Shown: one piece after another, positions 2,604 to 62,044 of the stretch
How positions within the stretch are numbered: the stretch's first letter is position 1
Layout of the letters: every line of letters begins with the position of its first letter
Origin: Malus domestica
Lineage: Eukaryota; Streptophyta; Magnoliopsida; Rosales; Rosaceae
DNA length: 64,000 bases
Assembly (NCBI RefSeq): GCF_042453785.1
Contig: NC_091665.1
Coordinates: 31,335,001-31,399,000 of the forward strand
Reading direction: 5' to 3'
Notes under the pieces: model-generated
What the model was told of the DNA's origin: nothing
Databases searched by the model: none
What the model saw: only the letters and a program-made list of their open reading frames with translations
Made by a program: the position numbers and the translations under genes

Positions 2604-3601
2604 GGGTAAATTGCCAAAATGGTCCCTGAGATTCCAAATCGATAAAAGTGGTCCCTAAGATTGTCCACCATCCATCATTTTGGTCATTCTATTAAAAATT
2701 CTGTTAAGTGTCCGGAGCTCTTGGCCCGAAGTTTGAGCAATTTTCAAAGCTTCGTAACTCAATCGTTTCTTAACCAAATTCGACCCATAATATATCAAAA
2801 TTAAGATAGGAAAGTGTAGAATAAGATTATACCTATTTCAAAGCCCAATGGTTACCGGAGATTACTGGAAAATAGCCTCAAAATTGACTGGTCCGAGTGA
2901 AAACTTGAAAACTCGCTGGAAACTGGGTAAACGTTAAACGTTCATAACTTCTTCATTACTCAACGAAATCAAGTGATTTAAAAACTAAAATCATACTTCA
3001 CGATGAGACGAAGAGAATGGTACCTTTTTAGATGGATAAATCTCCGTGGTTTGGCCGGAAAACGGCTCGAAATTGGCTAACTCGAGACCAAGACATCCAC
3101 TTTTGAGCCGTTTTTCGGCCAAACCAAGGCGAGTTAGCCATCGAAAAAGGTACCATTCTCTTCGTCTCGTTGAGAAGTATGATTTTCGTTTTTGAATCAC
3201 TTGATTTCGTTGAGTATTGAAGAAGTTATGAACGTTTAAAGTTTACCTATTTTCCGGCGAGTTTTCAAGTTTTCACTCGGACCAGTCAACTTTGAGGCTA
3301 TTTTCTGGTAATCTCTGGCAAACATTGGGCTTTGAAATAGGTATAATATTATTCTACACTTTCCTATCTTCATATTGATATATTATGGGTCGAATTTGGT
3401 TAATAAACGATTGAGTTATGAAGCTTTGAAAATTGCCTAAATTTCCGGCCAAGAGCTCCAAGAAACTTAACGGAGTTTTTAACGGAATGACCAAAATGAT
3501 GGATGGTGCACAATCTCAAGGACCACTTTTATCGATTTGGAATCTCAGGGACCAATGTGATGAGTTATGCAAATCTCAGGGACTATTTTGGCGATTTACC
3601 C
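2604..3601. mobile_element. Mutator-type foldback element with 9-bp target duplication
   Basis: A 998-bp near-palindrome. It begins GGGTAAATTGCCAAAATGG and ends with the inverse, GGCGATTTACCC. Both sides carry the identical 9 bp TTTATACTA (2595-2603 and 3602-3610). The two arms of about 450 bp pair almost throughout and meet at a loop near 3060-3110, which contains ATTCTCTTCGTCTCG and its inverse. The right arm carries one extra repeat of the terminal 'GTCCCTGAGATT' unit. There is no transposase frame, so it is non-autonomous. A 9-bp duplication with long inverted arms is the signature of Mutator-like foldback elements (established knowledge); the family name is inference. Confidence 0.85.
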
Positions 3602-30952: not shown

Positions 30953-33900
30953 TTAATCCTTGTCCAAAGATTGTGCAATCTTCTTGGAAATGCAATAAGC
31001 AGTGGATTCAATGGTGATCATTGGATTCACACCAACTGCAGTCGGAAGCAAACTTGCATCGCAAACAAACAACCCTTTTGCCTCCCAACTCTCACCATTT
31101 TCATCAACTCCTCCTTCCTCCTCAGTAGCCCCCATTCTGCAACTCCCCATCTGATGAGCAGATGAGTAAATTGTCCACAGCTCCTCCCTCGCGCTCGGCC
31201 CTGCGGAGGTGACAACCGTGTCCAAAAACTCCTCCAAGTCCTCCTCCTTAACCCCCTTGCATTTTATCCTCTGCCCGTCGTTTCGATATGTCCCCACTTC
31301 AACAGCTCCTGCTGCAATCAGGATCCTCAGAGCCTGCCTTAGCCCTGCTAGAAGATTTTCTTTGTCTAATTGGTCTAATGTGTAGTGGACCCTCCCCTCA
31401 CGCTTAACCACGCCCGAACTGCTGTCTCTCACCAATGCAAACAGGTTAGCTGTTCTTGCATACTTCTCCATCTTGTCCTTCATGTCAAGCCTTGAAATCC
31501 ATGGAGACAATGTAGCAAATGAGGCCGGCCCTAGCACAGCAGTCTCAATAATCGCGCGTGCATTTGCGGTCTCAGAAACCACTTTGTGGATTGAAGTGAT
31601 GATCCCTCCCTCATATTTTTTTCCCTTGAACTCCGATTCGTGTTGAGGAAAGTATCCCCAAGACAGCAGAACAGGGTGGAGGTGGAGGTTCCGGCCAATA
31701 TTCCGATTCTTGAGTCCACTGGAGATCATTAGAGGAGGAGTCAAGAGAGACCCACATGCTGAAATTGTCACTTTTGCCTCGATTTTCAGCTTCCTTTTTA
31801 TGTTCTTGCTCAAAGATGTTGCTTGCACCCCAAGGCATCGCTTTCTTCTACCTCCGTCATTGTCACTCTCGAGTATAAACTTCTCAGCTTTGCATCCGGT
31901 TAAAATCACCGCACCACATTCCACAGCATCGACTAGCCAAGTTGAATCGGTCCCTTTCTTGTCCCCTGTTGGACAGCCATAATTGCAGAAACCGCAGTAA
32001 TGATCTGCCGATGAGTTCCTTGGAACTGATTCAACTTTCAATCCAAGATTTTCGCACCCTTTTCGCAGAATTTGATTTTGGAAATTTTCTTCGGTGCAAC
32101 CCTCCGTGACACTGATCCTCTTACACACAATATCCATGGCAGATTGGTAATCCTCGCTTGCATAAAGTGGAATCTTATGATCTACAGACCACTCACGAAG
32201 AACATTATGTGGCGTTCTGATAGATGCAGACCAATTTACCGCAGAGCCTCCTCCAACTGTTGAACCGGCTAAAATCATTACCATCGCATCTACGGATGCC
32301 ATAATTCCACCAGATTCGTATAGCTCACTCATTGAAGGGCCTTCTAGAGAAGAGTAATCCTTCGGCACGAAATAGTTCCCTTTCTCTAGAACGACCACTT
32401 TTTGGCCAGATTGAGCAAGAACTGCAGCTGCAACTCCTCCACCACAACCCGAACCAACAATGACAACATCACAATTGATCCTGTGGATGTTGTTTGCTGC
32501 ATCGTCCGCCACTTCGAGGCCTTTCTTCGTGAGAGATTGGACGAGGGTAGAATCGCTTTCATACACGGTTTCTATGATTCCCTTATCAAGAGGTCTCTCC
32601 TTTGGGGTTTTAATCAATTTTTCTTTCTTGTCTAAGTCAAATCCAATCGCTTTCCATGCTGGGTTTCTTGAGTTTTCATCAATCTACAAACCAAGCAGCA
32701 AAAGAGGAACAAAAACTTTAATTTCTAATGGAAAAAGAGTGAAAGATGAAACAAGGACCAATATAATAATTGCAAGTGTGCACCAACTAAAGAAGCAGAA
32801 GTGGAGTAACGGAGTGAGTATAGAAGTATAAAAGTTAACAATATTGTCCTTTTGCTTTGCCCTATCATTATTCAAAGTCATGAGGGATGAAAGCAACCGA
32901 TGACATAAATTATCTAAATTAAATTAAGAAAAACTAATGAAAATGGCTTGAAAACTTTGAGTTTTAATGATAAGGACAAAATAAAGGGTAAAGTGAATAG
33001 TACCAGGATTGACTTTTTAGTGCAAGAATGTGGTTTTTCGTTAAAGTGAACAGTAACATGGGTTTTTCGTTAAAACTCCTATTAAATTATTTATCAAGGA
33101 AAAACAATGGCATAAGATAAGGGTCAAAACTGACATGCCTTACCTACACCGGCAACGACACTGGTATACCAAACTACTAATGCCAGTGAAGAAGCCAGAA
33201 ATCGAAATTAGAAGAGGCCTCTCAGTCATATGAAAGAAATTAGACAAAAAATAATATAACTAATGGGAGAAAAGGTTCACTTTTTGTAGTGGAATGAAAA
33301 GTTTTAATCAAAAGAGAGTAGTGGAGTCAAGAAAAAAAAATATTGAGATAATTATATCATAAGCACCGAACTTTAGTTCCTACTTAAGTTGAACAAAAGT
33401 TAATAATCATGGCTCAAAACTGCAGCTATGAAAATTGTATTTCAAGATATTCCTCCTCTATTCTATATGTGTGGGGTTCATTGTATAACAACACTGTATC
33501 ATAAAAAATGATGAACTAACTAAGGAAGGCTAGTTGATATAAGGCTTTGGTTTCATAACAATACTACTGTAAAACACTTTTTTTTTTTCAAGAGAAACAT
33601 AATAAAGTTAGCTGGGAGTAAAATCACAATATCACAAGTCAAAGAATGCAGAATATCCAACAAAAGGCACACAAACAGAAGCTACAAAGTAAAGATACTT
33701 CAGGATAGGCCTGGGCCTCTCTTGGTCCTCAAGTGACTCCGCCATTGACTAACGCACACACATCATTGTTATTAATTCGAAATACTGTCACAGGGTCGTA
33801 CTCAGTATAAGTAAATCTTTTTTACTGTGGTGCTAAATATTCAGATAGAACATTACCCTGGAGAAGAAGGTGTAGAAGCAGAACATTTTGACCACCATAA

Positions 33901-35556: not shown

Positions 35557-35981
35557 TGTTGTAATGTCATATGTAGATGGCCCACATAAATAGTTCTTTA
35601 CTATTTATCTGTAAAAAAATTCGAAGAATTACTTTTTATTTGAAGATATTTTGTAAAGTAAATAGTGTTGCTACATTATTTCGTCAAATGAAAACCTCTA
35701 TAAAATGAGGTTCATTCTTCATTTGTTCATTGCATATACACAATTCAATATCAAAGACAAAGAAGAGAAAAGTAAAGAAGAGGGATTCAGGAGAAATTGC
35801 TAGTGAGCTGGGCTAGAGAGAAAAAAGAATAGTGAGAGTTATCTTTGTACTACTATTATTTTAGATAATGAGAGAAAGTACTGCTGCTGCCTGAAGACGT
35901 AGGCACACTTGCCGAACCTCATAAACATTGTGTCTCGTTTACTTTATATTCCACAACCCACATACCACCAATTTTACAACA
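35557..35981 (+). repeat. Left LTR of the 35557 element
   Basis: 425 bp, TGTTGTAATG to TTTACAACA. It contains CTATAAAATGAGGTTCATTC (TATA box, near 35700) and a TTTAGATAATGAGAG stretch where the transcript start region would be expected. Confidence 0.85.
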
Positions 35982-37094
35982 CGTTATCAGCACGATAAAC
36001 TCTCGCTTAAGTGCAAAACACTACACAGAATCCAAACCCAAAACAATGGTTCAAGATGACATTGTTCTTAGGTATGTCAAATTTTTATCTATTTTTTGTC
36101 TCTCTCACCATGCCAGAAGCGCCTTATTGAATCTTGGTGAGAATTGAAATTTACAATGACCTGTAGTCATCATGAAATGAGAAAACTCGTATTTGACAAA
36201 TGGTTTCCAGAGATCCAAAAGAATCTAATCGGACTTGGAAACCCAGATCGCATCGTTCTTGACGGATCTCGAGGACTCATGGTAATTCTAGCATTGAGTT
36301 TTATGCTACTCGACACCTATGGCTGCCATCTTTTGATGGCGTTGCAGTCCTCTGGTAGATGCCAACATCTTCATCGTCCCCAATTTTGTGACTCCCTGTC
36401 TAATATCTAATGCCAGAAGCGTTATCACCACCATTTTTTTTGGTGAAGAGATCGACGACGACAAAAGTTTTTATTTTGGTTTTGCTCCGCTGGCAAATTC
36501 CTGTATCCTAGCAGCGAGCCCCAATTTTGGGATTACCTTTGCTACCAAAGTGCTTAAAGCTCATTACCATACCTAAATAAATAAATAGAATAAAAATGGG
36601 GAGCCTGAGAGGTGTGGTTCTGGTTGAGCACAAAAAAAGAAATAAAAAAAGTGAATGATCAATCATTCACGTGGAAAAGATAAAAAAGGGGAAATGGGGC
36701 TAGATTTTTGGAATGGTTTATTGCACCATGTGAGAAGAACTGAAAAAAAAAAGATGGACACTTTATCATTGTCTTTTTTGTTTTGGCATATTATGTGAAT
36801 GATATTGGTTTAAAATCATATCACTAGTTTTATATTGGATAAATTACAAAAAACTACATCAACAATTGGTGTCACGACACTTTCATACTTCATCTTTCAA
36901 AATTGACAATGTCATACCTCATCTTACGAATTTGTGCCAATGCTATACCTTCCGTTAGCTTGGCGTGAATTTCTCAGTTAAATACTCACGTAGCTTGATC
37001 CGGAGCCCATTTTCTATTAAAAAATTATTAAAAACTAAAAACAAAATTAAATATTTTTAAATATTAAAATAATAAAGAAAAGTTAAAAAAAAAA

Positions 37095-37855
37095 AAACCA
37101 ACACTAAGTTCGTTCCCTTCCCCCCCTTCTCTCTCTTCTCCCCATCTTCATCTTCTTCCCCCTTCCTACAACTGCAACCCAGAAAAAAGAAGAGAGAAAA
37201 AAAAAAACCAATTTGTCTTCCCCGTTCCCCCCCCCCCACTCCCTCTTCTCCCCGCACCCAACCTCCCCACCTTTGCACCCACCCTTTGCACCCAACCTCG
37301 CACCCATTACCTGCAACCCATAAAAAAAAAAACCTAGAAAAAAACCCAGATCCTGTTGAGGTGGAATCAGGAAACCTTCGCCAGGTCAATTCCGAAGGTT
37401 GAGAACCTGGGCGAAGAGAAAATGGGGGAAATGGGTGTGGAGGGAAAATGGTGGGTGCCGGGGGAGGGGGGGTGAGACGGACGAACTAGGTTTCCTTTTT
37501 TTTTTCCTTCTCTCTCTTCTTCTTTTTCTACAGGTTGGGTGGAGGGGGGGAGGGATGGACGAACTGGGTTTGGTTTTTTTTTTTTTTTTTTTTTTTTTGT
37601 TGTTGTTTCTTCCTCTTCTTCTTCCTGGGTTTGTTGAGGGGGGGCAACTGGGTTGGGTTTTTTTTTTTTAATCTTCTTCCTCATCTTCCTCCTCCTTCTT
37701 CTTTCTGGGTTGCTGGGGGTTGGGTTTATGGTGGGGGGAAGGGGGCGAACTGGGTTGGGTTGGGGGTTTTTTTTTTTTTTAATTTTTCTTCTTCTTCTTC
37801 CTCCTTCTTCTTTCTGGGTTTGTTGGGGGGGGGGGACGAACTAGGTTGGGTTGGG
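37095..37855. repeat. Inverted C-rich/G-rich minisatellite inside the LTR element
   Basis: The left part (37095-37330) is pyrimidine-rich, with C runs up to about 12, TTCTTCTCC blocks and A-runs. The right part (37430-37855) is its inverse: repeated units of GACGAACTRGGTT, a T-run of up to about 20, CTTCTTC blocks, CTGGGTTTG and a G-run of up to about 12. The switch lies near 37330-37430. Four or so units are visible on the right. Long frames here are low-complexity artefacts. Confidence 0.75.
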
Positions 37856-38079
37856 GTTTGGCTAATACTTGCATCCCATTAAAATTTGGAGCACATGTGA
37901 ACCACATTCAAAAGCAAACACTTAAACTATCATGCATGGTATCAGATTACATCAACTTAGTAATCAGTCAGTTTGACGAATTCGAAATCAATAGGAGATA
38001 CTCTTTCGGGGGAGCATCCAAAACAGATCAAGAATTTAACGAAGTAACCAAAATTGACATATTACCATCTAAGGGAGAG

Positions 38080-38511
38080 TGTTGTAATGTCGTATATGGA
38101 TGGCCCACATGAATAGTTCTTTACTATTCATCTGAAGAAAAATCAAATGAATTATTATTTATGCACTATTTATTTGAAGAAATTTTGTAAAGTGAATAGT
38201 GTTGCTATATTATTTCATTGGATGAAAACCTCTATAAAATGAGGTTCATTCGTTCATTGCATATACACAATTCAATATCAAAGAGAAAGAAGAGAAAAGG
38301 AAAAAAAAAAGATGCAAGAGAAATTATCAGTGAGCTGGGCTAGAGAGAGACGAGAAAATAGTGAAAGTTATCTTTGTAGTCCTATTATTTCAAATAATGA
38401 GAGAAAGTATTGCTACTGTCTCAAGGACGTAGGCACACTTGTCAAACCACGTAAATATTGTGTCTCGTTTACTTTATATTCCACAGCCCACATACCACCA
38501 ATTTTACAACA
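38080..38511 (+). repeat. Right LTR of the 35557 element
   Basis: 432 bp. Aligns end to end with the left LTR with a modest number of substitutions and a 7-bp length difference. Confidence 0.85.
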
Positions 38512-46189: not shown

Positions 46190-46253
46190 CAATGACCTGC
46201 AAACTCGCTCCATTCATAGAGTGGTTGTTTTCGGCTAGATTCTCTGCAGTCTA

Positions 46254-48008
46254 ATGACAAACAAGATGAAGTTCAGACCCTACGACATACTGGTCAAGAA
46301 AACGTCCGACAGAGATATCATTATGTTCAAATTGAAGAGTTCAGATACTATCAAGCATCTCAAGGCCATGATCCAGTGCGTGGAAGGCGTGCCGGTGGAG
46401 CGACAAACCCTAGTTTACAATGGCAAAGTGCTGGATCGTGACAACGAAACCCTAGCAGCGTGCAATGTTGAAAGCTGGTCTACTGTTCATGCAATCTTTT
46501 GTTCTGAGAAAATCAATCCCAAAGTTGATGGTGTGAGTATCCATGTCAAGGTGCCGGGCTGGGGACCTGTTTTGGTGGACATAAAACCGTGGTTTACTGG
46601 CCGGGAGATTAAGGCGGTGACAGAGAGCGTGGTAGGGTTTGGTTTGGACGATTTCGTGGTGAGCCACGGTGAGGAGTTTGTAGAGGATTGCACGAGGATT
46701 AGTGAGTGCAATCTCAATAAGAACCTTTGTTTTACGTTGTTGCCGGTAGGGAATAGATTTCCGATTATCGCCCGTGGTTGCGGTTGGGAAGAATTGATAT
46801 CGGTGAGTGAATTGGATACCGTTCGTGATTTGAAGGAGATTGCTGGAAAGTTTGCTGAAGTGCAACTTGACAAACTATGGCTTTTTCATGGTGGCCATAT
46901 GGCTTATCTTGATGATGATGAGAAAACCCTAGGGTTTTACCATGTGAACAAGAGATCAACGATTTGGGTGTTCGGTTCTTCTTCGAAACTGTCCATCAAA
47001 ATGCCGCAGGTTGGAGAAACGATCGCGCTTAGCATCTACAAGGTCAGTTCCATAATGGACATCAAGCAATATATTTGTGAGAAGATGGGGATCCCATGTA
47101 CAAGTCAGAAACTTTTTTACAAGGGGCAGTTGCTTGATGAGGCTGAGTGCCTGAAAACCTACAACATGGAAAGGAATTGTGTTGTTTATGCAGTTTTTCG
47201 GTGTGGCGATCAAGCTGAAGAAGTTGAAGAAACAAGTTTAACATTTCGGAAGACACAGAGAAACTCGAAAGAATACCTGGTGAGGCACTCCCATTTCCAA
47301 GAACCGGAAAGAAAACCAGACCCAAAACCAGTGTACGATGAGGATTCATTTGAAATCAAGTTAAGTTCTTCGCATACGATTTATGATGTCAAGGTAATAG
47401 TTGAGAGCATGCTAGACCTCCCAATTAGTGACCAACAACCATACTGTCACGGCGAAACGCTAAACGATTGGGAAGTCATATCGGATTGCAACGTTACAAA
47501 TTGGTACTTTTCCAGCTCTCCATTAACAATCTACGTCCGAACACCCGATGTTACCGCACTGGGACTTCCAGCTAAGAGTTCGGACATCATTGACGATGTT
47601 TGGATCCCCCCACCAATGATTGAAGAAGTTAACGGGCAGCCATGTCTCTTCCTTGATGGCACTCGCCTCATGGGCACAAAAACACTAGCTCAGTACGGCA
47701 TACAGTCAGGTGCGGATTTATTGTTAGACTGTTTGGTGCAGATCAACGTGACGGGGCCAGACGGTACAATCACTAAGGTGGATGTGAACCCTTCTCACAT
47801 AATCAAGGCAGTGAAAGAGAAGATTGAAGAAATATGTGGCATCCCATATGGGATACAAAGCCTTACTTATGGTGACGAGGAACTTGACGACAACATGACT
47901 ATTGGGCAGTATGAGGCGCTGTTCGGCAGTCTATGGGCGCTAAGGTGGAAGTTTTCTCGTAGTTCTTGGTCGTTCTTTTGGCCTTCATACAATGCACTGC
48001 ACTGCTGA
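46254..48008 (+). CDS. Multi-module ubiquitin-like protein, no C-terminal Gly-Gly
   Basis: One intronless frame of 584 aa; a second in-frame ATG 12 bp on (MKFRPYD) could also be the start. I count about seven diverged ubiquitin folds in a row, at roughly 8-83, 93-168, 170-245, 247-320, 350-428, 428-497 and 498-572. The clearest keep the ubiquitin pattern 'DTIKHLKAMIQCVEGVP...QTLVYNGKVLDRD...L' (module 1), 'DIKQYICEKMGIP...QKLFYKGQLLDE' (module 4) and 'KAVKEKIEEICGIP...QSLTYGDEELDD' (module 7). No module ends in Gly-Gly, so it is not a polyubiquitin precursor and cannot be conjugated. A scaffold or binding role is only a guess. No acceptor domain of another kind is fused. The reading frame is intact, but I cannot tell from sequence whether the gene is expressed. 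Confidence 0.82.
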   Translation: MTNKMKFRPYDILVKKTSDRDIIMFKLKSSDTIKHLKAMIQCVEGVPVERQTLVYNGKVLDRDNETLAACNVESWSTVHAIFCSEKINPKVDGVSIHVKVPGWGPVLVDIKPWFTGREIKAVTESVVGFGLDDFVVSHGEEFVEDCTRISECNLNKNLCFTLLPVGNRFPIIARGCGWEELISVSELDTVRDLKEIAGKFAEVQLDKLWLFHGGHMAYLDDDEKTLGFYHVNKRSTIWVFGSSSKLSIKMPQVGETIALSIYKVSSIMDIKQYICEKMGIPCTSQKLFYKGQLLDEAECLKTYNMERNCVVYAVFRCGDQAEEVEETSLTFRKTQRNSKEYLVRHSHFQEPERKPDPKPVYDEDSFEIKLSSSHTIYDVKVIVESMLDLPISDQQPYCHGETLNDWEVISDCNVTNWYFSSSPLTIYVRTPDVTALGLPAKSSDIIDDVWIPPPMIEEVNGQPCLFLDGTRLMGTKTLAQYGIQSGADLLLDCLVQINVTGPDGTITKVDVNPSHIIKAVKEKIEEICGIPYGIQSLTYGDEELDDNMTIGQYEALFGSLWALRWKFSRSSWSFFWPSYNALHC

Positions 48009-48346: not shown

Positions 48347-51300
48347 TCACTTATCAGTCATGAGGAAGTGGATTTGCCGTCGCAAGTAGAAAACCTGCAA
48401 CGGGCAATCAATCCATGAGTTATCAAATCTAAGGTCTGTGCTTCTTACTGTGTGTGTGTCGTAAAATAATTAGGTTAAAAGGACTCCAGGCTACTCCCTA
48501 AAAGAGTGCTTTTGGGTAAATTAGGTCTTGGGTGCTAAACCGGTCAAACAATGAAGAAAAATTAGACTGGTAATAAATAGTTGAGGCTCCAAAGAAATAG
48601 AACTTACCTCCTCTTGAAGCAAAGTTGGTAGACAATCGGTTGATATGAGGCAATTGATTTCTGCCAGTAGCTTCGCTTCTCTAAGACCAGACCATGTTTG
48701 TTGAGGCAGAGCCAATAGAAGTACTGTTAGAACATCACCTGTAGATGGATGCATCCCTATGCAGCTACCTTGAAAATAAGAACACAAGCTGCTTGGTTCG
48801 GTTTGACATGAGGGAACCAGCATCTCAACTGCTTGTTCACCGCCATTTGTTGTTACAGTCCCCGACACCACGGTAACGGGCTTTTCACCATTGCACTTCA
48901 AGAGTTTCACGTCAGTTTGCCTACAGCATGCTCGATCAAATGAACTGACACTCCCGGAAAATACTTGTCCTCCTTGGCAACAAACATTGGCAGCAATTTC
49001 AGGCAATGTATCTTTACCACCTTGTGATATGTCTTTACAGATTGATTTAGAAGCCAACCATTCGCTTACGTGTCTGAAGAGTTCCGTTTCTCTTACTTGT
49101 TTTAATACCTCTTCCTGAAATGCCAATTAGAACCTCAAAATCACAAGTCCCCATCTATGTATTTCTTTTCATTTCAAGTATAAGAAGAAATGGACGGGTA
49201 TAGCTTAGAATGTCATCAATCTAACACTCTTTTGCTTTTCTGGAAAAAAGAAGAAGAATACGGGAACAGAAACAGAAAACCAGAATGCATGCATGAAACC
49301 ATGAATAAAGAAAGGGCTATAACAAACCTTGATAGCGAGCCTTCCTTTTTCCTCTTTGTCTAAGCTCAGATTCCCATCCTCTTGTCTCCGAACTTCAGCA
49401 ACCCATTTAATGAACTCTCTCAAGTCAGCAGGTGGTGATTTGAAGAAAACAGAGATTACATTCTGAACATCTTTTATATCTTCCGACTTCAACAAGAGAG
49501 GAACGTCTTCTGTTAAGTACTTCGCAATACTACTCCAACCTTCATGTCTGCAACTCTGGGGACAATTCACAGTTACAATAGGATCTAATATTTTATGGCA
49601 AGTGGAAATAGAATAATAAACCAAAAATGTGTAACCACGAAGGTTAAACAAATGTCTATTGTGGAAAGGTTAGCAATAGCAGTGTATATAGAAACAAACA
49701 GTGTGGATTTTGTATTCATCCAATTTTGATCATATCTAAGTTCATCCGAAGGTCTATTTGCATTCATCCGAGTTTAGTCATATGTATCTAAGTTTTTCCA
49801 CAAGGATACCAGTGTAATTCTGAAATTTGCACATGAAATATCACAGGAACTAGGTTACATAAAACAGATCGGCCTACAAGAGCAATACCACAGTGTAGAG
49901 AATAGACGGGCTTCTGTTAAGCCTTGAAATGATCATGTACCTGAAAGAGTCAAATTTTAGAACGTAAACGGTAGTGAAGTAATCAATAGGAAAACGATAA
50001 GGTCCCCACTGTAGAATTTAATACAAAAACTACAGCCTATGAGTCTATGACCCATATGAAAAGGTGCATTAACAACTACGAATTAAAGGAAGATATTATA
50101 CAAAGACAAAAAGTGAGCAAGAAATGCTACTGCAGTTTGAACAACAAAAGTCTATGATTATAAAGACCTGAACGCTTTTTACCCCGACAATTTAATATAT
50201 GGAACTTTAAAAGTGAAGGGCATACCCCCGACAATGTCCAGTTGCTTCATCAATAGTAGTCATTCCCTCCCAGAGAAGCGAAAGGGGAACCCAATGAGGA
50301 GGATATTTGAATCGAGCAACATCCAAAATGAGAACCATATCTGTTCCGGCGTGATAGCCACCAATCGGTGAAAAATGACCACTTCCAGTCTGTAACCAGA
50401 TAGAGCAGTGCTAATATGTCACTAATGATCACAAATACAACTCAATGATACAAGATAAAAAAAACTAACTCAATTTCCTAGATATGCAAAGACAAAACTT
50501 CAATGTGGAGACAACTCAGTGGTAGAAAGGATGAGTCTCACAAAACCTGGCTAAATGCAGCTCTGTGGTAAGATGTGATGACATGACAATCCTCTGAAGA
50601 AGTACATGAAATGACATGCTTACGAAATTCATCCACCGAACTTTCTTCGGTTCGTAATGCCTTCACTTCAGCTCCGTTGCAATGCGCCAAGCATGCAACT
50701 TTCCCGAATGTGATGCCTTCGGCTTTGACCTTTGCCAAAGGCTCACAGCAATCTAGCATTGAGTCATCAAACCATCTCCATGGGCCTAAGCTCACAAAAA
50801 GTCACAGGACATCATCAGGCAAATAAACAAAAGACCCATTGGGAGTGCTTATGTAGGTAGCACTTTTGCCGTGCTTTTATCATAAACATGTCAAAAAATT
50901 TATTATAAATCCACGTGCTTCTATGAAAAGCACCTTGAAAACTTGAAAGTGTTTCATGAAGCACCTGCTAGTTCAACGACCAATAATTGCTTTTAAGTTT
51001 TTATGCCAAACTTAGTCAGACACGTTTTTGATTGTCAAAAAGTACTTTTAGCTATTAAGAAGCAGTCTCAAACAAGCCCAAAGTATACGCCTTTATAATC
51101 CAAAGGGCATTTGGAGCACCAGAATTGAACAAAACCCTAAACCCAAATCCTAATTTAGCTCTAAAATCAAAAAGTACATTAGGGAAGTTGGGCAAATTGA
51201 GAAAAGCAATCACCTTTCCATTTTCTTCCGGGATCAATGGCGAGGGCGTTGAGGACGACGGCGAGGGTGGCCAGCCCGCAATAAGCAGGCTCCGACTGCG

Positions 51301-51446
51301 TTTGGTAGTAAGAGATCAACTTGAAAAACCCCTCCATGGTTCCATTTCCAAGAGCTTCAGTAAATAACTTCTGTAAAATGATAAAATTAAAATTCACATT
51401 CACACAGAACCAACCAAAAATACCCAAATGCAATTCATTATATTCT

Positions 51447-51477
<31 letters not shown>

Positions 51478-51554
51478 ACCTTTCCGTCTGGGGAAGCAAA
51501 TTCGATTGCAGGAGGAGAGGGAAGCTCCCGGCGGTAGAGGCCGACCACCGCCAT
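48347..51554 (-). CDS. Phytochelatin synthase, downstream copy
   Basis: Glutathione gamma-glutamylcysteinyltransferase, a cytosolic papain-fold enzyme that joins glutathione units into phytochelatins for cadmium and arsenic tolerance. Eight exons on the minus strand: 51480-51554, 51214-51370, 50547-50785, 50226-50389, 49889-49940, 49328-49555, 48608-49114 and 48347-48394, giving 489 aa. The catalytic triad is intact at the numbering of Arabidopsis PCS1: Cys56 ([10 protein letters not shown]), His162 ([12 protein letters not shown]) and Asp180 ([14 protein letters not shown]). The C-terminal half has the usual Cys-rich metal-sensing pattern (VCCQGGQ, ACCRQ). The last exon ends early and atypically ([12 protein letters not shown]). 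A GA microsatellite (51447-51470) lies in intron 1. Tandem with the copy at 52747-61691. Confidence 0.93.
51447..51470. repeat. (GA)n microsatellite in intron 1 of the downstream PCS gene
   Basis: About 12 GA units, 10-33 bp inside the intron from the exon 1 donor. Confidence 0.9.
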
Positions 51555-52746: not shown

Positions 52747-55700
52747 CTAAGCGAGAGGAGAGCCAAGATCTTCGTCTACCCTATCCTCTTGGCATTTCTT
52801 GAGGAGGTGGAGCTGGCGTCGCAAGTGCAAAACCTGTGCCAAACCAGTAGGAAATGTTATAGGATATTTGAAATAAAAGTCGGTGAAGATTTACTGGAAA
52901 AATTAGCTGAAAACTACAAGACATTTTAACTTTGTTGATGCACAAAACCGGATGGTCTTGGTACAACGTAAATCCGACCGTGAATCTGCATAAAATGTAA
53001 ATAACACAAGATGTATCGTGGTTCACCCCAAGGTTTGGGCTACGTCCACACTGATTGTATTATATTTCTCTGTTGAAGAGGGAGAGAGAGCTTAGAGCTT
53101 AGGGGATGTGAGGAGGCTTGGGAATGGCCTCCATGTTGACCTCCTCTAATTGTGAGAGCAATTCCACCCCTAAAGACTTTGCGCCAGCACCCAGCGCATT
53201 TATCCACTCAAATGAACAGTAATAGACTGGAGTGAACAGTAATAGGCCAAGGCATCTCCACCCCTAAAAAAATGCGCTGGTACCCAACGCATTTATTTGG
53301 TGTGTTTTTTTTTTTAAGTTTATTTCGGATAAGATTTTTAACCAATTTCAGATAAAATTTCAAATAAACTTAAAAAAAAATACACACTAAAATAAAATTA
53401 CATACTCATCAAATAAACCAAAAAAAAAACACACTAAAATGAAATTACATAAACTCATCAAATACACTTTATTCTTCAACCACAAGTTTTTTGGTATTTT
53501 TTTTTCACACAAAAAGTATATGAAAGCTTTGGTAGAAAGTGTAGAAAATATTGAAATGTGGTGTAAGGTGGAAGATGAGAGTTAGGTATTTATAGAAAAA
53601 ATAAATAAATTTTTATTTTAAATTTTATGTATTTTTTAATATTTTTTCTGTATGTTTTAATAAATTTTAATTAGTTAATTAACGTGGACCGTTGATCTGT
53701 GATCGGACGGTATATTTTAAAAGTAAAATTTAAATTTTTTTTACCGTTGGAAATCCAACGGTCTAGAAAAACTAGCCGTTGGAAATCCAACAGATATAAG
53801 AATGCCACGTCGCTAATGGGATCCGGAGCACAAGTGGGCTGACAGCCCTGTCGGCTACTCGCGGCAGCGCCTGCGTGAAGCGCACGCGCCAGGCAAACTG
53901 CCCAGCTTCTTGCTCAGTCTGTTTTGGGCTGGGCTCTTGCCCAGCTCGGGCTGGGTACCAGTCAAATTGAGGGGTGGACTTGGTTGACAGGGTGCTGGCC
54001 CTGTTTTTCTCCTGGGTCCTGGGCAAATTCCACTCCGGTGGAATTGCTCTGAGGGTGAGGGTCCTTTTATAGAATAAGGACTCCTCACTTATTACATATT
54101 TGCCCCTTCCTTTATCACATAATTACATTTAAGTCATCCGAGTATTTGTACGAGATCTAAATACGAGGCCCTAAATATGGTATAAACAAACTTACCTCTT
54201 CTTGAAGCAAGGTAGGAAGATTTACAGTGGAAACAAGGTTAGATATTTCTTTTGAAAGCTTCTCGTCTTTGATCCCAGACCATGTCCCTGGTGGCAAGGC
54301 CAGTAGAAGTGCTGTTAGAACGTCATTGCTAGCTGGATGCATCCCAATTGCACAAGAACATCCTGAATTTGTTTTTGATGAAGGAACAAGCACGTCCATC
54401 CTCTCCTCGGTTCCACCATTTACCACTGTCCCACTCACAACCGTGACTGGCTTGTCACCATTTGCCTTGAAGCATTTCACACATGTTTCCTGACAGCAAT
54501 ACACCCCCGAGAAGGCAGAGTTCCCCGACAAAATTTGTGCGCCTTGGCAGCAAACGCTCGCAGCAATGTTGGGCAAGTTTTCTTCATGACCGGAATATAA
54601 GTTTCCGCAGCATGAATGTGCTGAAGATAATAATTCTGCCACGTGTTTAAAAAGGCCAGTGTCATGGACTTGTCTCAGTACCTCCTCCTGCAAATAAAAA
54701 CTTAGGTATTGAGATTAGAACTAGAAAATTGTTTGGGGTTCTTAAGGATAAAAAACGGGACGATTTTATGCAGGAAAAGGGAAAACAAAGAAACTGAAAA
54801 TAAGTAAATGTGAAGCTCTAGAAGACAGATCACCTTGACAGCAAGCCTAGCTTTTTCCTCTAGGCTTAAGCTTTGGCCACCATCCTCTCGTCTCCGAACT
54901 TCTGCAACCCACTTGATGAACTGCCCAAAATAGGATGGGAGCGACATAAAAACAACAGAGAAAACTTCCTGAATGTCTTTCACCTCCTCCGATTTTAGAA
55001 GAAGAGGAACATCATCCATTAAGTATTTCGCAACACCAACCCAACTCTCATGCTTGCAGCTCTGCAACAGATCCCACAGAGAAATGGATAAATATCTTCA
55101 ACGATCATACAATAAGTAAGCAATCCAAGATTTTCGATAACTCCAGCACACAAACATAAATACTTTTGTCAAACACAACATAAGGGAGAGACGGCATACA
55201 ATAATGACAATTTAACAAATCAAAATACATCATATAGGTAGAGGTCATATTCACTAGGACAGGAAAAAGTATATAAAAAAATTAATAAGCTGCAGAGAAA
55301 AACATGCACATTCAGACAACCACAACGAACTGCCAATCATACCAGGGTATAAAGTTGTCCTGGCTCGCTGTGAGGCCTGGATATAAGCATGAACCTGCGC
55401 AAAAAATGGAATTCAATAATTAAGAATGTTATTAACATTCAATGCATCTCATTTCTAGCAAAAATATATAGAAATTGCTTCTGACATGCACATCCAATAA
55501 TTGGGATAATATCCAGTATAAAGGTAATATTCACTAGCACACACTAATGCATACCCTCTGCGTTGTCCAGTAGATGAATCAACATTATTCATGGCGTCCC
55601 AAAGAATTTTGAGGGGTACCCAATGGGGAGGATACTTAAAACGTGCAACATCCAAAATAAGCGCCATGTCTCTTTCAGCATGATAGCCACCAATTGGTGA

Positions 55701-58700
55701 AAAATGACCAGTACCCGTCTGCAGTAAAAATTTGATTCATACTAGTCAATACCTGATCAGCTTTCAAAGAACTGGGGAGTGTGACACAGGGTCATATAAG
55801 CAGAATCCATAAATGAGATAATCATCAGTATAGTGAATACTAATTAAAATTGAATTGACTAATGGTTCCACCAAAGAAATTGTCGAGCAGAACAGTAATA
55901 TAACCTGTTTGAGAACTGATCTATCGTATGAGGAGATCACATGACAATCATCAGAAGTAGAACATCTCAATACGTATTTACGAAACTCATCAATTGTGCT
56001 ATGATTTGTGCGAAAGGCTTCAACTTTTGCTCCAGCACAGTGAGCCAAGCAGACTAGCTTCCCAAATGAGATGCCTTTTACCTTGACAGTCTCCAAAGGC
56101 TCGCAGCAGTCTAACATAGATTCATCAAACCATCTCCAGGGTCCTGTGAGAAAGAACTCAGTTTTAATACATATAGATTATAGGATAATCAAGGCGTTTG
56201 CAAACTAGATGGAGGCAATAACGAGAGGCAACAACTGCTATAATGTGTAATGCATTTTATACTGCGTAAAGAATAGCATGGAAAAACATCATACAATACT
56301 AAAGTGTCACACTTGTAAGAGCTAACCAAGAACAAATTCTTAAATCCACCAAATGTTTCATCATTCTAAACATATACTCGATTGGACAATAAAGCAATTA
56401 GTCTAAGACAGTTTTATCATCAACAGCTCAGATTATAATGACCTGGACAATTTCGAAAGTCAATTGTGGAGCCAAAAAATAATCAAGAGGCGACACGTGG
56501 ATTTTTAGGTGAAGAGGACAAAATTACTCTCAAGACACACCGGGTTTCCTACACGCGAGCAGCGGAGAATCATCCATCAACCAAGTCAAGAGTGCCCAAA
56601 ATAGGTAACAAGTTCAAATTTATCTCATCCAACTTTACTGCATATCCTCTACAAGGAAATCATTCCATAACCTTCAAAACCTTCCATATAAATTAAATTA
56701 ATTAGGCTAATTAATGGATTAATTCCTAATTAATCCATTAATCACCAAATTAATTACCATTACACCTCAAAAAAATCCAAGGGCCGGCCATGCTCTATAA
56801 ATAGGACTCCATTTTCTTTCAAAGACTAGGTCGACACTCTTGCAAAACTCAAAAAACTCTCTAAACATTTTTCTCTCTAAATTCTAACTTTGGCATCGGA
56901 GGTTCTTCGGCCAAAGCCCCCCTCCATTCATCGTAGGCGCGTGAGGCTTTTGACCTTAACCAAAGGTGTTAATTGTTTTGTAGGTGTAATTTTGTCCAAG
57001 ATCAAGAAGGAAGAAATTTGCATCCAAAAATCGATGATTTCATTGAGAAAAGAGTCACACACTCGTAGAAGACTCTTGCATAAAAAGGTTTTTCTCTATT
57101 TTTTTAGTCCACTTGCATTTTTTCGTACGTTCTTATTATTAGAATTTTTTATTTGCAAAGATTCTTTAATAAAACGTAAAAGAGAAATACAATGGCTAGA
57201 AATTTAAAAAATTCCACGAGTGAAAATTTCAATATTCAAGAAATGAGACCGCGGCGATCCACGAGACTAAATGTGATCTTAGGGGGAGTGGCACCACCAC
57301 CACAAGGTTCCACCACGGTGGCTACCACGATAGCCACCCGTGGTGAGGTCGATGGTGTCACCACTACCATGACCTGAGTCGTGCCACCAAAGCAAGCCCA
57401 ACGCAAGCCCAATGCGTTGCCAAGCCGAGCCCAAGCCTCGCACTCGCGTGCATCACGCACCGAGCAGCCCACTCTTGCGACCCAGCCTGCTCCCGCCAAG
57501 CAGCCTACTCCCACGGCCCAGCCTGCTTCTGCCGGGCAGCTCACTCTCGTGGCCCAGCCTACTCCTATGACCCAGCCTGCCACCGTGGCCTCCTAAGCAG
57601 CCCAAGTCGGCCTAAGACTATCTCAACCATCTGGACCTACCATCAAGCCGGGGGCATTTTCACATTTCTTCGCAAATTTGACATTTCCTAACTCAAATCT
57701 CGCACCCGTAGCCTACCACACTTCCACTGCTCAAGGAGGCACATTCCTTCCAAGCTCTTCCAATCTAAATGGTGAACACTTGTCTCGACAAGTCATAGAG
57801 TTGATGAGCATCCTTGCACAACAGACAACCTTGGTGAATCAACTCTTGCAACGCACCGACATCCAACGTGCCTCGGATGAGGTGTCCCGAAGTAGGACAA
57901 GGGCAGATGAACCTCTCCACCAGCATCCCGGCAAGCAGCCCATCAACCAGCCACGATCCGAGCATTCTAGCAGTTTACGCTCCTACCTGGGTCCTTGGGA
58001 TAGCGTATACTCTCGTCTTAGCGCGTAGAGGAGCGTGCATTCCCGATCAAGCCCATGGACGAGCATACGTTCACGGTTGAAGTCACACTTCGATTATCAA
58101 TATGGACAACCTTTCAGGCGAAGTGTTCACTCACAACTAGGCTCGCAAGGAGTATTCTCCACCTCACATTGGAGTAGGCAGCATGGTAGACAGAGAGAAG
58201 CAGCCACTCAATCCGACTCAAGTTCAATCGATAGCCTGCGAGCAGCCTGTTTGCCTCCCAGGAACATGCCACATGCACCGCAATCGCGACATAGACAAGT
58301 CGATCATAGGGAAGAGTGGCCCAAACCCATAGGTCACGACTAGGGGTAGCCGAAAGTTCCACTGCCCCAGCAGAGGCAAATTCAAGAAGTTGCGAGGCTC
58401 CTAACTGAACGATTGCGCAATTTCTAACGTAACGAGCCTGCTGACGATGTGCTTCGACGAGACATGACCAACATAAGCATGTCACCATTCACAAATGAGA
58501 TTGAGCAGACAGATCCACCTCACGGGTTCACTATGCCTCACTTCACTCCGAACAAGGGAGACGAAGATCCGGATCGACATCTCAAGCACTACTGCAATAC
58601 CATGATCCTCTAAAGGAACAACGACGCGCTTATGTGCAAAATTTTTGCCACAACTCTACAAGGCGAAGCGCAAGATTGGTTTCATACTCTACCGCCGTAG

Positions 58701-61691
58701 CATCGTAAAAGACCCTAGGGAGACAATTCGCGATTATGTCAAGAGGTTCAAAGCTGAGAAGGCCAAGATTGTTGGCTGCAACGAGGAAATAGCAACGGCA
58801 ACATTCAGAAATGGGCTTCCCACCAAACATCCTTTATTCGGAAAACTGATCATGGGAGAAGAACTAACCCTAGCAGCTTCGTATGCTTTGGCAGAAAAGC
58901 ATGCATTATGGGACGAGGCCAAGCAATCTAACAAAAACGAGTCGGAAAAGAAGCACATGGAACGTTCCTCAACCAAAGAAGACTCAGGGCCTGAAACATT
59001 CACCAAGTTCACAGTTCCAATTGGCCAAATTCTCCGCAAGCTCAAGAATGAACCTTGGTTCGAACTGCTGCCACCCATGAAAGGCGATCTTACCAGACTG
59101 GATCATACAAAGTATTGCGCATTCCATCAAGGACTAGGCCACACTACCAACGGCTGCCTAAAGTGGAAATAGTACCTTGAGAAGCTAACCAATGAGGGTC
59201 GATGCGATGAGTATCTTGACAGGTCAACGAAACAGCCTACACAAGCAAGGGAAGTCTCCATCACCCCCTGAACCCCGTTTGGGCTTTTCCAAATAAGTTC
59301 GAAGTCTCAAGCAGCTCAACGAACAAGGCCTCGCAAGCCAAAGATTATCCAGTTTGATATGCAGTTTCTACCTTCCAGCACAATTGATTTATTTCTTTAT
59401 TGTCAATGAAGATTCAAGAAGTTACTCATAAGCCTGGCTCAACTGCTGTCCACAACAACTGCTCAAAACCCTTTTTAGGTTTGCTCTCCAGTGTGAGAGG
59501 ATAAACTAATTGCTCTTTAGTGCGAGAGGGTAAACCAATTCCCCGACACCCATATGGGTTTGCTCTCCAGTGTGAGTAGCCACTTTTGCACTTAATAGTT
59601 CACTCATCCAACACTTCATCTTCAACAGCTCTGATCTTGGCAGCTTTATCCTTGACTGCTCCATCTATGGCAGCTGAGAAATCAAACTCAAGCAGTTTCC
59701 TCATTTTTGGCAAGCAGCCCAGACATGGCAGCCCAAACCGTTGCCCATGCCACGCCACTTCCTCGGCCCATGCCGAGCTAATCCTTGGATTCAATCAAGC
59801 CGAGCAGCATAAGCAATGGCCCTTGCCACACCACCTCATTGGCCCATGACAAGACGACTCCTGGCCCCTGTCAGCCGACGTGCCGCACCACCCCGAAGGC
59901 TGCCCTATGGCAGCACCTCCCAAGAAGAAGACAAGGAGAATTAAGTTTTCCTTACATTGATGCGGCGCAGAGAAGACGAAGAAAGCAACGAAAGACGATC
60001 ATTTGCACGGGTAAGTGTAGAAGATTGCTAGGGGAGGGGGAACAAATATCCTCTAAGCTTTCTCTCTCTTGTAGGGTAGAATCACTCTCCAAAGTTGATT
60101 TAACAACCCACTTAAGGTGGACTTAAATAGGCTTTGAGAGAAATTTATTTCCCTTTCCTAGAAGGATCTAATTTCATATTAAAGAGGGAATTTACATCAA
60201 ATTAGGAAGCAGTCCTTAGTTTCCTAGAACAAGAAGATCTCTACACCTGCTGCCCTTTCTTACGAGCAGCCCACCAGGTGTGGGGGCATTTGTGGAGCCA
60301 AAAAATAATCAAGAGGCAACACGTGGATTTTTAGGTGAAGAGGACAAAATGACTCTCGAGACACACCGGGTTTCCTACACGCGAGCAGCGGAGAATCATC
60401 CATCAACCAAGTCAAGAGTGCTCAAAATAGGTAATAAGTTCAAATTTATCTCATCCATCTTTACTCCATATCCTCTACAAGGAAATCATTCCATAACCTT
60501 CAAAACCTTTCATATAAATTAAATTAATTAGGCTAATTAATGGATTAATTCCTAATTAATCTATTAATCACCATTACACCCCAAAAACATCCAAGGGCCG
60601 GCCACTCTCTCTTCCAAAGAGGGTCGGCCATACTCTATAAATAGGACTCCATTTTCTTTGAAAGACTAGGTCGAGACTCTTGCAAAACTCAAAAAACTCT
60701 CTAAACACTTTTCTCTCTAAATTCTAACTTTGGCATCGGAGGTTCTTCGACCAAAGCCTCCTCCATTCATCGTGAGCGCGTGAGGCTTTTGGCCTTAACC
60801 AAACGTGTTAATTGTTTTGTAGGTACAATTTTGTCCAAGATCAAGGAGAAAGAAATTTTCATCCACATCAATCTAGTCGGAATTTATCCAATAGAACTTA
60901 AATGGATACGATTAACAGGATGGCGAATATAACAAAACTTGACTTTGTCAATGAAATTTAAAATGCCATTCACTAGCTGGTCCAACAAAATGATACCTTC
61001 AATCATATTAGCTGATAAAACTTCAAACCTTACCTTTCCATTTCCTTCCGGGATCAATGGCAAGGGCATTCAAAACCATGGACAGGCTCGCCAATCCGCA
61101 ATAAGCGGGCTCGGATTGTGTCTGGAAATAAGAAATCAACCTATAGAAGTTCTCCATAGTTCCCCTCTGAATGGCTTCAAGAAAAAGCTCCTGCAATTCG
61201 AAAACCATCAAATTTAGTAACCGGAAAAAATGGTTCAGAACAGAAACACATGACAAGCAGGAAAATCATCCACTCCCTAGAAAAAAAACACAAGAACAAA
61301 CCATATAACGTGACTTAATGAACAACCTGCTAAATTCCCAAAAACACAGGCAGCCAAACAAATGTTGGATCATACATACACAGAACTCAAAATTCTTACA
61401 GAACTTTAACCGCAAACAAAAATTGGGGAAAATGACATATTCAGATTGTATTATAAAAGGGTATCTACAGAGAAATTAAAGTTTTAAGCTGTAATGCTAA
61501 ATGTTAAGCATCGCCAAAAAAAATAATAATAATAAAATATTGGGGGAAATTAAAAAATGAAAAATTTGAAGAAAAAGTAAGTAAAGGGGTGAGGAAGCTG
61601 CATCTGAAGGTTGTACCTTTCCCTGTAAGGAAGCAAATTCGACTGCCGGAGGAGAAGGAAGGGTTCGTCTGTACAGCCCCGCCATAGCCAT
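52747..61691 (-). CDS. Phytochelatin synthase, upstream copy, enlarged by two insertions
   Basis: Same enzyme family as the neighbour at 48347-51554. Eight exons on the minus strand: 61617-61691, 61034-61190, 55905-56143, 55555-55718, 55343-55394, 54834-55061, 54196-54687 and 52747-52833, giving 497 aa. The first six exons have exactly the same lengths and phases as in the other copy, so the two arose by tandem duplication. Cys56, His162 and Asp180 are conserved. The C-terminal region keeps Cys pairs ([25 protein letters not shown]). The last exon is longer than in the copy below ([17 protein letters not shown]). Intron 2 is 4.9 kb because of the retrotransposon at 56465-60867, and intron 7 is 1.36 kb because of the solo LTR at 52933-54188. 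All splice sites remain GT/AG, so the gene may still work. Confidence 0.92.
52933..54188. mobile_element. Solo LTR in the last PCS intron, with a nested insertion
   Basis: Begins TGTTGATGCACAAAACCGG and ends GGTATAAACA (TG...CA). Exact target duplication AACTT at 52928-52932 and 54189-54193. After removing the nested element at 53155-54050 the LTR is about 360 bp. No internal retrotransposon region or second LTR is seen, so it is a solo LTR. It stands seven bases inside the intron, directly next to the exon 7 donor. Confidence 0.75.
53155..54050. mobile_element. Element with AGAGCAATTCCACC inverted ends, nested in the solo LTR
   Basis: The left end AGAGCAATTCCACC and right end GGTGGAATTGCTCT are perfect 14-bp inverted repeats. 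The left half carries GTGAACAGTAATAG twice and the words GCGCATTTAT. The right half is GC-rich, with repeated GGGCTGGGC-like words. No transposase frame. The target duplication is unclear (about 3-4 bp at most). Confidence 0.6.
56465..57028 (+). repeat. Left LTR of the gag-only element
   Basis: 564 bp. It has a TATA box (CTCTATAAATAGGACTCC, near 56793). Its last bases read CATCCAAA where the right LTR has CATCCACA. Confidence 0.85.
57029..58464. other. Interior of the gag-only element, 5' part
   Basis: Short open frames, including Pro/Gln/Ala-rich repeats at 57381-57596 (QPTP- and QPA-type words), but no domain. The usual primer binding site directly after the left LTR is not seen. Confidence 0.5.
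58465..59172 (+). pseudogene. Broken gag of the LTR element
   Basis: The Retrotrans_gag domain is recognisable in pieces. In the frame starting 58465, the motif [17 protein letters not shown] follows an in-frame stop (TAA after TMIL). After about 58690 the frame shifts and continues as [35 protein letters not shown] and [12 protein letters not shown], ending in a zinc-binding-like [16 protein letters not shown] segment normally found between LPP and RDYVKRF appears deleted. No pol follows. Confidence 0.75.
59173..60290. other. Interior of the gag-only element, 3' part
   Basis: Non-coding. It carries two copies of TTTGCTCTCCAGTGTGAG and a third related TTGCTCTTTAGTGCGAG within 59480-59580. 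Pol domains are absent. Confidence 0.6.
60291..60867 (+). repeat. Right LTR of the gag-only element
   Basis: 577 bp. It contains a short extra segment near 60605-60625 (CTCTCTTCCAAAGAGGGTC) and lacks about 12 bp present in the left copy. TATA box near 60635. Confidence 0.85.
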
Positions 61692-62044
61692 GTTTTTAAT
61701 TTATTTATTTTTTAACTAAAAAAATTAAACAAATAAAACGAAGAAAAAAATTGTGGAAGAAAATCAGATCTGGGTAGGGCTGAGAAAATTGAAGAGTCAA
61801 CGTCAATGAATTTTCAAATTCTCGATTTGTCTGGTGCGTTGCTAGGGTTTTGGGTTTTGGGTTTTGGGTTTTGGTTCGGATCGGCGTCGTGGAAAATTCT
61901 CCGTTGCGTTCGATTAGGAAAGGAAACCCGCGTAATATACTGTTTCGAAATGCCACAGCTTTTAAAGTCTTCCAATCAATAATCAAACGGCAAGGATAAG
62001 ATTGTCGTTTTCTCGGGAAGGGGTTGTCATTGCAAATTAGTAAC

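Follow-up and report, generated by a model that had tools for sequence, protein, structure and literature searches.

Two phytochelatin synthase (PCS) genes lie in tandem on the reverse strand of the window, the whole 64-kb stretch of apple DNA analysed here, and the upstream copy, PCS-B, carries an LTR element in intron 2 (Table 1). The predicted PCS-B protein matches both Pfam domains of the enzyme, Phytochelatin with an E-value of 9.3e-90 and Phytochelatin_C with an E-value of 4.8e-121. Its coding sequence is open through all 497 codons, and the seven introns of the gene model (7/7) are bounded by GT-AG. The catalytic residues of the enzyme, C56, H162 and D180, are in place: C56 and D180 were located computationally, and H162 was read within the GHFSP motif of the translation. 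Relatives of solved structure, as judged by sequence, comprise the sequences of five chains of Nostoc-type Alr0975. Intron 2 (61033-56144) measures 4,890 nt, or 482 nt once the element and one copy of its target-site duplication are subtracted; it begins at donor AAG/GTAAGG and ends at acceptor TTCTTTCTCACAG. A sequence-only reading of this DNA had proposed a phytochelatin synthase gene as host, an intron stretched from about 480 nt to 4.9 kb and PCS splice sites left intact, and the two Pfam domains, the open frame, the measured lengths and the splice sites of the gene model bear out each of these proposals. Upstream of the PCS-B start codon lies a short tandem array of GGGTTTT (4.3 copies, 61845-61874).

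Table 1. Coordinates of the PCS genes, the two insertions in PCS-B and the parts of the intron 2 element, numbered from the first letter of the window.
Feature	Position	Strand	Remarks
PCS-B CDS	52747-61691	-	8 exons, 497 aa
PCS-B exons	61691-61617, 61190-61034, 56143-55905, 55718-55555, 55394-55343, 55061-54834, 54687-54196, 52833-52747	-
Tandem paralogue PCS-A	48347-51554	-	8 exons; intron 2 of 428 nt, element-free
LTR element in PCS-B intron 2	56465-60867	+	4,403 bp
Target-site duplication TCAAT, left copy	56460-56464
Target-site duplication TCAAT, right copy	60868-60872
5' LTR	56465-57028	+	564 nt; TATAAATA at 56796; decayed end
Broken gag-like region	57192-59271	+	ATG at 57192
Post-gag internal stretch	59272-60275	+	no Pfam match at or above cut-off in any piece
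G-rich stretch AGGTGTGGGGGCATT, candidate polypurine tract	60276-60290	+	by eye; directly before 3' LTR
3' LTR	60291-60867	+	577 nt; TATAAATA at 60636, directed at PCS-B exons 2 and 1, antisense to gene
TE-like insertion in PCS-B intron 7, solo-LTR-like, TG...CA	52933-54188		1,256 bp; AACTT at 52928-52932 and 54189-54193

The neighbouring gene, PCS-A, is complete, lies downstream of PCS-B on the same strand and shares about 63% protein identity with it. Exons 1-6 have equal lengths in the two genes, exon 1 after correction of its start. When intron 2 of PCS-A was compared with the emptied intron 2 of PCS-B, no significant homology was detected (best E-value 0.086). Since the two introns cannot be aligned, PCS-A shows that an uninterrupted intron of like size is normal, and does not serve as an aligned empty site. 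Convergent with PCS-A is a reading frame at 46239-48008, open for 589 aa, in which four stretches are ubiquitin-like.

Passages of PMC11879510 describe an ancient tandem PCS duplication, termed D1/D2, across core eudicots, and argue that such pairs are of early-eudicot age and that PCS copy number or dosage is constrained in plants. By the markers given there, AtPCS1 position 47 is F in D1 proteins and Y in D2 proteins, only D1 proteins have a C-terminal 471-478 stretch, and position 270 is mainly P or A in D1 and nearly always L in D2 (PMC11879510, in part). At position 47, nine residues before the catalytic C, PCS-B has F and PCS-A has Y, and a C-terminal tail is present in PCS-B and missing from PCS-A, as placed by a pairwise alignment without AtPCS1. 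Position 270, in an ungapped numbering that is unanchored to AtPCS1 beyond position 180, is L in PCS-B and P in PCS-A, the reverse of the rule. On position 47 and the tail, PCS-B would be the D1 member and PCS-A the D2 member, which probably makes the D1 copy the host of the intron 2 insertion.

Among apple genes, the same passages assign MD05G1193300 to D2 and MD10G1180000 to D1, and describe MD05G1193400, the D1 member of a neighbouring pair, as 94.3% identical to the D1 gene; its amplification failed in those authors' hands (PMC11879510). The window pair resembles MD05G1193300 (D2) and MD05G1193400 (D1) in that D1 and D2 are neighbours, a likeness of arrangement and not of sequence, and this offers a lead that it may be the PCS pair of apple chromosome 5. 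An in-frame ATG 33 codons upstream, as would fit the 33-aa extension described for MdPCS2, is absent in both genes; that form reportedly arises from splicing. The main text of PMC11879510 uses neither 'intron' nor 'transpos-', and no title or abstract opening among the CC-licensed PMC papers listed for PCS in apple, Malus or Pyrus, or for the three apple locus names, mentions a transposon in a PCS intron.

The element in intron 2 is inserted antisense to its host, with the element on the forward strand and the PCS gene on the reverse strand, and it is flanked on both sides by identical copies of TCAAT; an exact 5-mer at one fixed place would occur by chance with a probability of about 0.0012. 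Its extent, exact duplication and orientation are those first proposed. Its LTRs had been called clean: a pair is indeed present, but it is not quite clean, with about 5% divergence, three gaps and a 5' LTR that ends in AAA. The LTR alignment covers 551 sites, of which 95.1% are identical and 27 differ (18 transitions and 9 transversions), and contains gaps of 12, 26 and 1 nt. The TG...CA ends are kept in the 3' LTR, and the final CA of the 5' LTR has been lost (AAA instead of ACA). The tract adjoining the 3' LTR, AGGTGTGGGGGCATT, is by eye G-rich and not purine throughout. In elements of this kind, a tRNA primer-binding site with a TGG start adjoins the 5' LTR; a canonical site was not found here, TGG being absent from the first 150 nt 3' of the 5' LTR. 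One small deletion would explain the loss of both the 5' LTR end and the primer site. With no such site, normal priming would no longer work for this copy; its origin is shown by the LTRs and the target-site duplication.

The LTR divergence (K2P 0.051, standard error 0.010) places the insertion at 6.4 ± 2.4 My at a rate of 4e-9 per site per year, the rate applied to Rosaceae in a passage of PMC11197308; point ages over four rates range from 2.0 to 10.2 My. Searched against the 64-kb window at an E-value of 1e-3, the element matched nothing beyond its two LTRs and, within these, an AT-rich palindromic stretch that matches itself. Scans of the whole window with Rfam, at gathering scores, and for tRNAs gave no matches.

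The interior was described by comparing with Pfam, at E-values up to 1, every stop-to-stop piece that overlaps 56900-60400 and reaches 40 aa, 50 in all. In Ty3/Gypsy elements, the order of pol is PR-RT-RH-IN; none of the 50 pieces matched reverse transcriptase, RNase H, protease or integrase. The call of a gag-only element thus survives a check of 57029-60290 for reverse transcriptase and integrase among pieces of this size. One piece, 58606-59172, matched Retrotrans_gag below threshold (E-value 0.012; 16.3 bits, with a cut-off of 24.1 bits), and five others gave stray sub-threshold matches to unrelated families (DUF4081, DurN, Hexokinase_2, UPF0731 and Codanin-1_C). Of the claim that the element carries only a damaged gag, the absence of pol and the broken frame therefore stand, and the identity as gag comes from one sub-threshold match together with its place in the element. 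Searches for relatives of this piece yielded 50 pattern matches in non-plant genome contigs and three in viral contigs, with none confirmed in either set; as both collections are non-plant, this result says little.

From its ATG, the gag-like frame contains seven in-frame stops up to 58611, shifts to another frame between about 58606 and 58627, and meets a further stop at 59170; the last one, at 59269, may be where gag naturally ends. We asked how many stops decay since the insertion would have produced, using C/G transitions between the LTRs for calibration. Nine stops were observed against 3.8 expected (P = 0.016; allowing for rate uncertainty, 0.026). The count leaves out 58698, a stop of the first frame beyond the frame change, and uses a switch point, 58613 to 58627, of our own choosing. 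With lower counts, the corresponding values are 0.040 and 0.057 for eight stops and 0.090 and 0.113 for seven. The excess is no more than suggestive of an element that jumped with its gag already broken, in which case its proteins would have come from other elements.

TR-GAG elements are non-autonomous LTR retrotransposons with only gag, and their definition asks for an open gag frame. The intron 2 element shares with them the LTR-gag-LTR layout, the target-site duplication and the lack of pol, and its 4.4 kb falls within the first and third quartiles of TR-GAG length in PlantLTRdb, 3,608 and 8,054 bp (PMC10025401, in part). Unlike a TR-GAG, it has a gag interrupted by 8-9 stops and a shift of frame, and its primer-binding site is not recognisable. 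Because the gag frame is not open, we term the element decayed and gag-derived and do not file it under TR-GAG. LARDs and Ty3/Gypsy deletion derivatives have LTR ends around a non-coding or decayed interior and are moved in trans. The element is like them in having LTR ends around a decayed interior, and unlike them in that a weakly recognisable gag persists.

We consider it likely that a pol-less, gag-derived LTR retrotransposon, mobilised in trans, came to lie in intron 2 of the D1 copy, decayed there and is spliced out of a gene that still functions. Enzymes supplied in trans would have copied the element, which would have landed some millions of years ago in a probable D1 member of the tandem PCS pair and decayed after insertion. 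Splicing would remove it together with the remainder of intron 2, and PCS-B would stay functional. At most, we would expect the insertion to modulate the expression of PCS-B, either by intronic heterochromatin or by driving antisense transcription across exons 2 and 1 from its 3' LTR. As an event, this is an ordinary intronic LTR insertion; it is notable for the tandem pair to which its host belongs and for the second insertion in intron 7, both of which are new here.

The origin of the element admits another account, compatible with the rest of this reading, to which we attach appreciable weight, short of an even chance: an ordinary Ty3/Gypsy element may have lost pol by deletion in this copy. 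The weak Retrotrans_gag match would suit such an ancestry, and the missing primer site and the broken end of the 5' LTR suggest past deletions. However, beyond gag lie about 1 kb of sequence and a G-rich tract, and none of the 50 pieces shows a trace of pol, an observation from one copy and so not decisive. With only one copy of the family at hand, a private deletion of a complete element and a pol-less family look the same.

The second insertion accounts for most of intron 7, which measures 1,362 nt in PCS-B against 213 nt in PCS-A, and 101 nt when the insertion and one AACTT are subtracted. The right AACTT corresponds to positions +3 to +7 of the intron 7 donor, GTAAGTT; the insertion therefore hit the splice donor, and the duplication left the donor whole. 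The insertion looks like a solo LTR. Inside it are 14-bp inverted ends (53155-53168 and 54037-54050), and no clean target-site duplication was found for any element nested within it.

The reading frame and splice sites of PCS-B survived while the LTRs gathered 27 substitutions and three gaps. Applying mutation rates from this one LTR pair to the 1,494-nt coding sequence, we would expect 1.3 nonsense mutations and 3.9 indels since insertion under neutrality; no stop and no frame break are seen. The probability of this outcome is 0.019 with frame-breaking indels only and 0.005 with all three gaps counted (in-frame indels would escape notice), and about 0.033 and 0.014, respectively, with rate uncertainty. 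Because mutation presumably runs faster in silenced elements than in genes, the test overstates the constraint on PCS-B. The open frame speaks against loss of function, and PCS-B most likely kept working.

On the PCS-sense strand of the element, no cryptic donor with at least 7 of the 8 consensus bases was found; the other strand has one. AATAAA occurs five times on the PCS-sense strand versus once on the other, counts taken without a chance control, and early polyadenylation could result from the five. The TATAAATA of the 3' LTR faces PCS-B exon 2 across 398 nt. A modest regulatory effect of the insertion on PCS-B is possible. The sequence-only reading had raised altered splicing and silencing that spreads into the gene as outcomes; these may or may not occur, and both the surviving frame and splice sites and the lack of a near-consensus donor on the PCS-sense strand speak against a strong effect. 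The arrangement is like that of TE-bearing heterochromatic introns described for rice and Arabidopsis in passages of PMC7145194 and PMC4417168, in that a TE occupies an early intron and its host gene may be expressed, here as judged from the DNA alone.

A stronger effect seems unlikely to us. Under it, the D1 copy would be expressed less or not at all, owing to heterochromatin in an intron near the promoter, premature polyadenylation or antisense RNA that starts in the 3' LTR, and the gene would be becoming a pseudogene while its D2 neighbour suffices. PCS-B does carry two insertions, in the second intron and at the intron 7 donor, and both the TATAAATA aimed at exons 2 and 1 and the five sense-strand AATAAA could act in this direction; yet the coding sequence is open and the splice sites are present, where loss would otherwise be expected, and the sense strand is without a cryptic donor of 7/8 consensus bases. 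Heterochromatic introns in rice are longer and concentrated towards gene 5' ends according to a passage of PMC7145194, but intronic heterochromatin is also described in actively transcribed genes in parts of that source and of PMC4417168. MD05G1193400, the D1 gene of a like pair, failed to amplify (PMC11879510, in part); such a failure has many causes, however, and MD05G1193400 may or may not be PCS-B. Going further, we regard it as quite improbable that, in this plant's lineage, the two intronic insertions made the D1 gene of an ancient pair, kept over a long time, weakly or conditionally expressed, a natural change of dosage at a locus for metal detoxification in which antisense transcripts starting in the 3' LTR would act as a switch. 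That a mis-assembly put the element into the gene is highly improbable, since repeats are in general prone to mis-joins but specific support was not seen here, the duplication is exact at both ends, and the flanking intron sequence runs to the expected splice sites.

A PCS copy whose introns hold large insertions, next to an uninterrupted neighbour, would offer a natural within-locus control for the effects of intronic transposons on a stress gene. Elsewhere in the window, an LTR-like pair at 35557-38511 is 84% identical, has a TGTTG start and a spacing of about 2.1 kb, and is accompanied by a CTTGA duplication, located when start and end offsets were varied over a small range. A GMC oxidoreductase gene region with 576 aa open spans 30953-32683. 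Near the start of the window, a near-perfect palindrome of about 935 bp (2620-3554), with arms of about 458 nt that are 90.6% alike, represents a potential large hairpin or foldback element.
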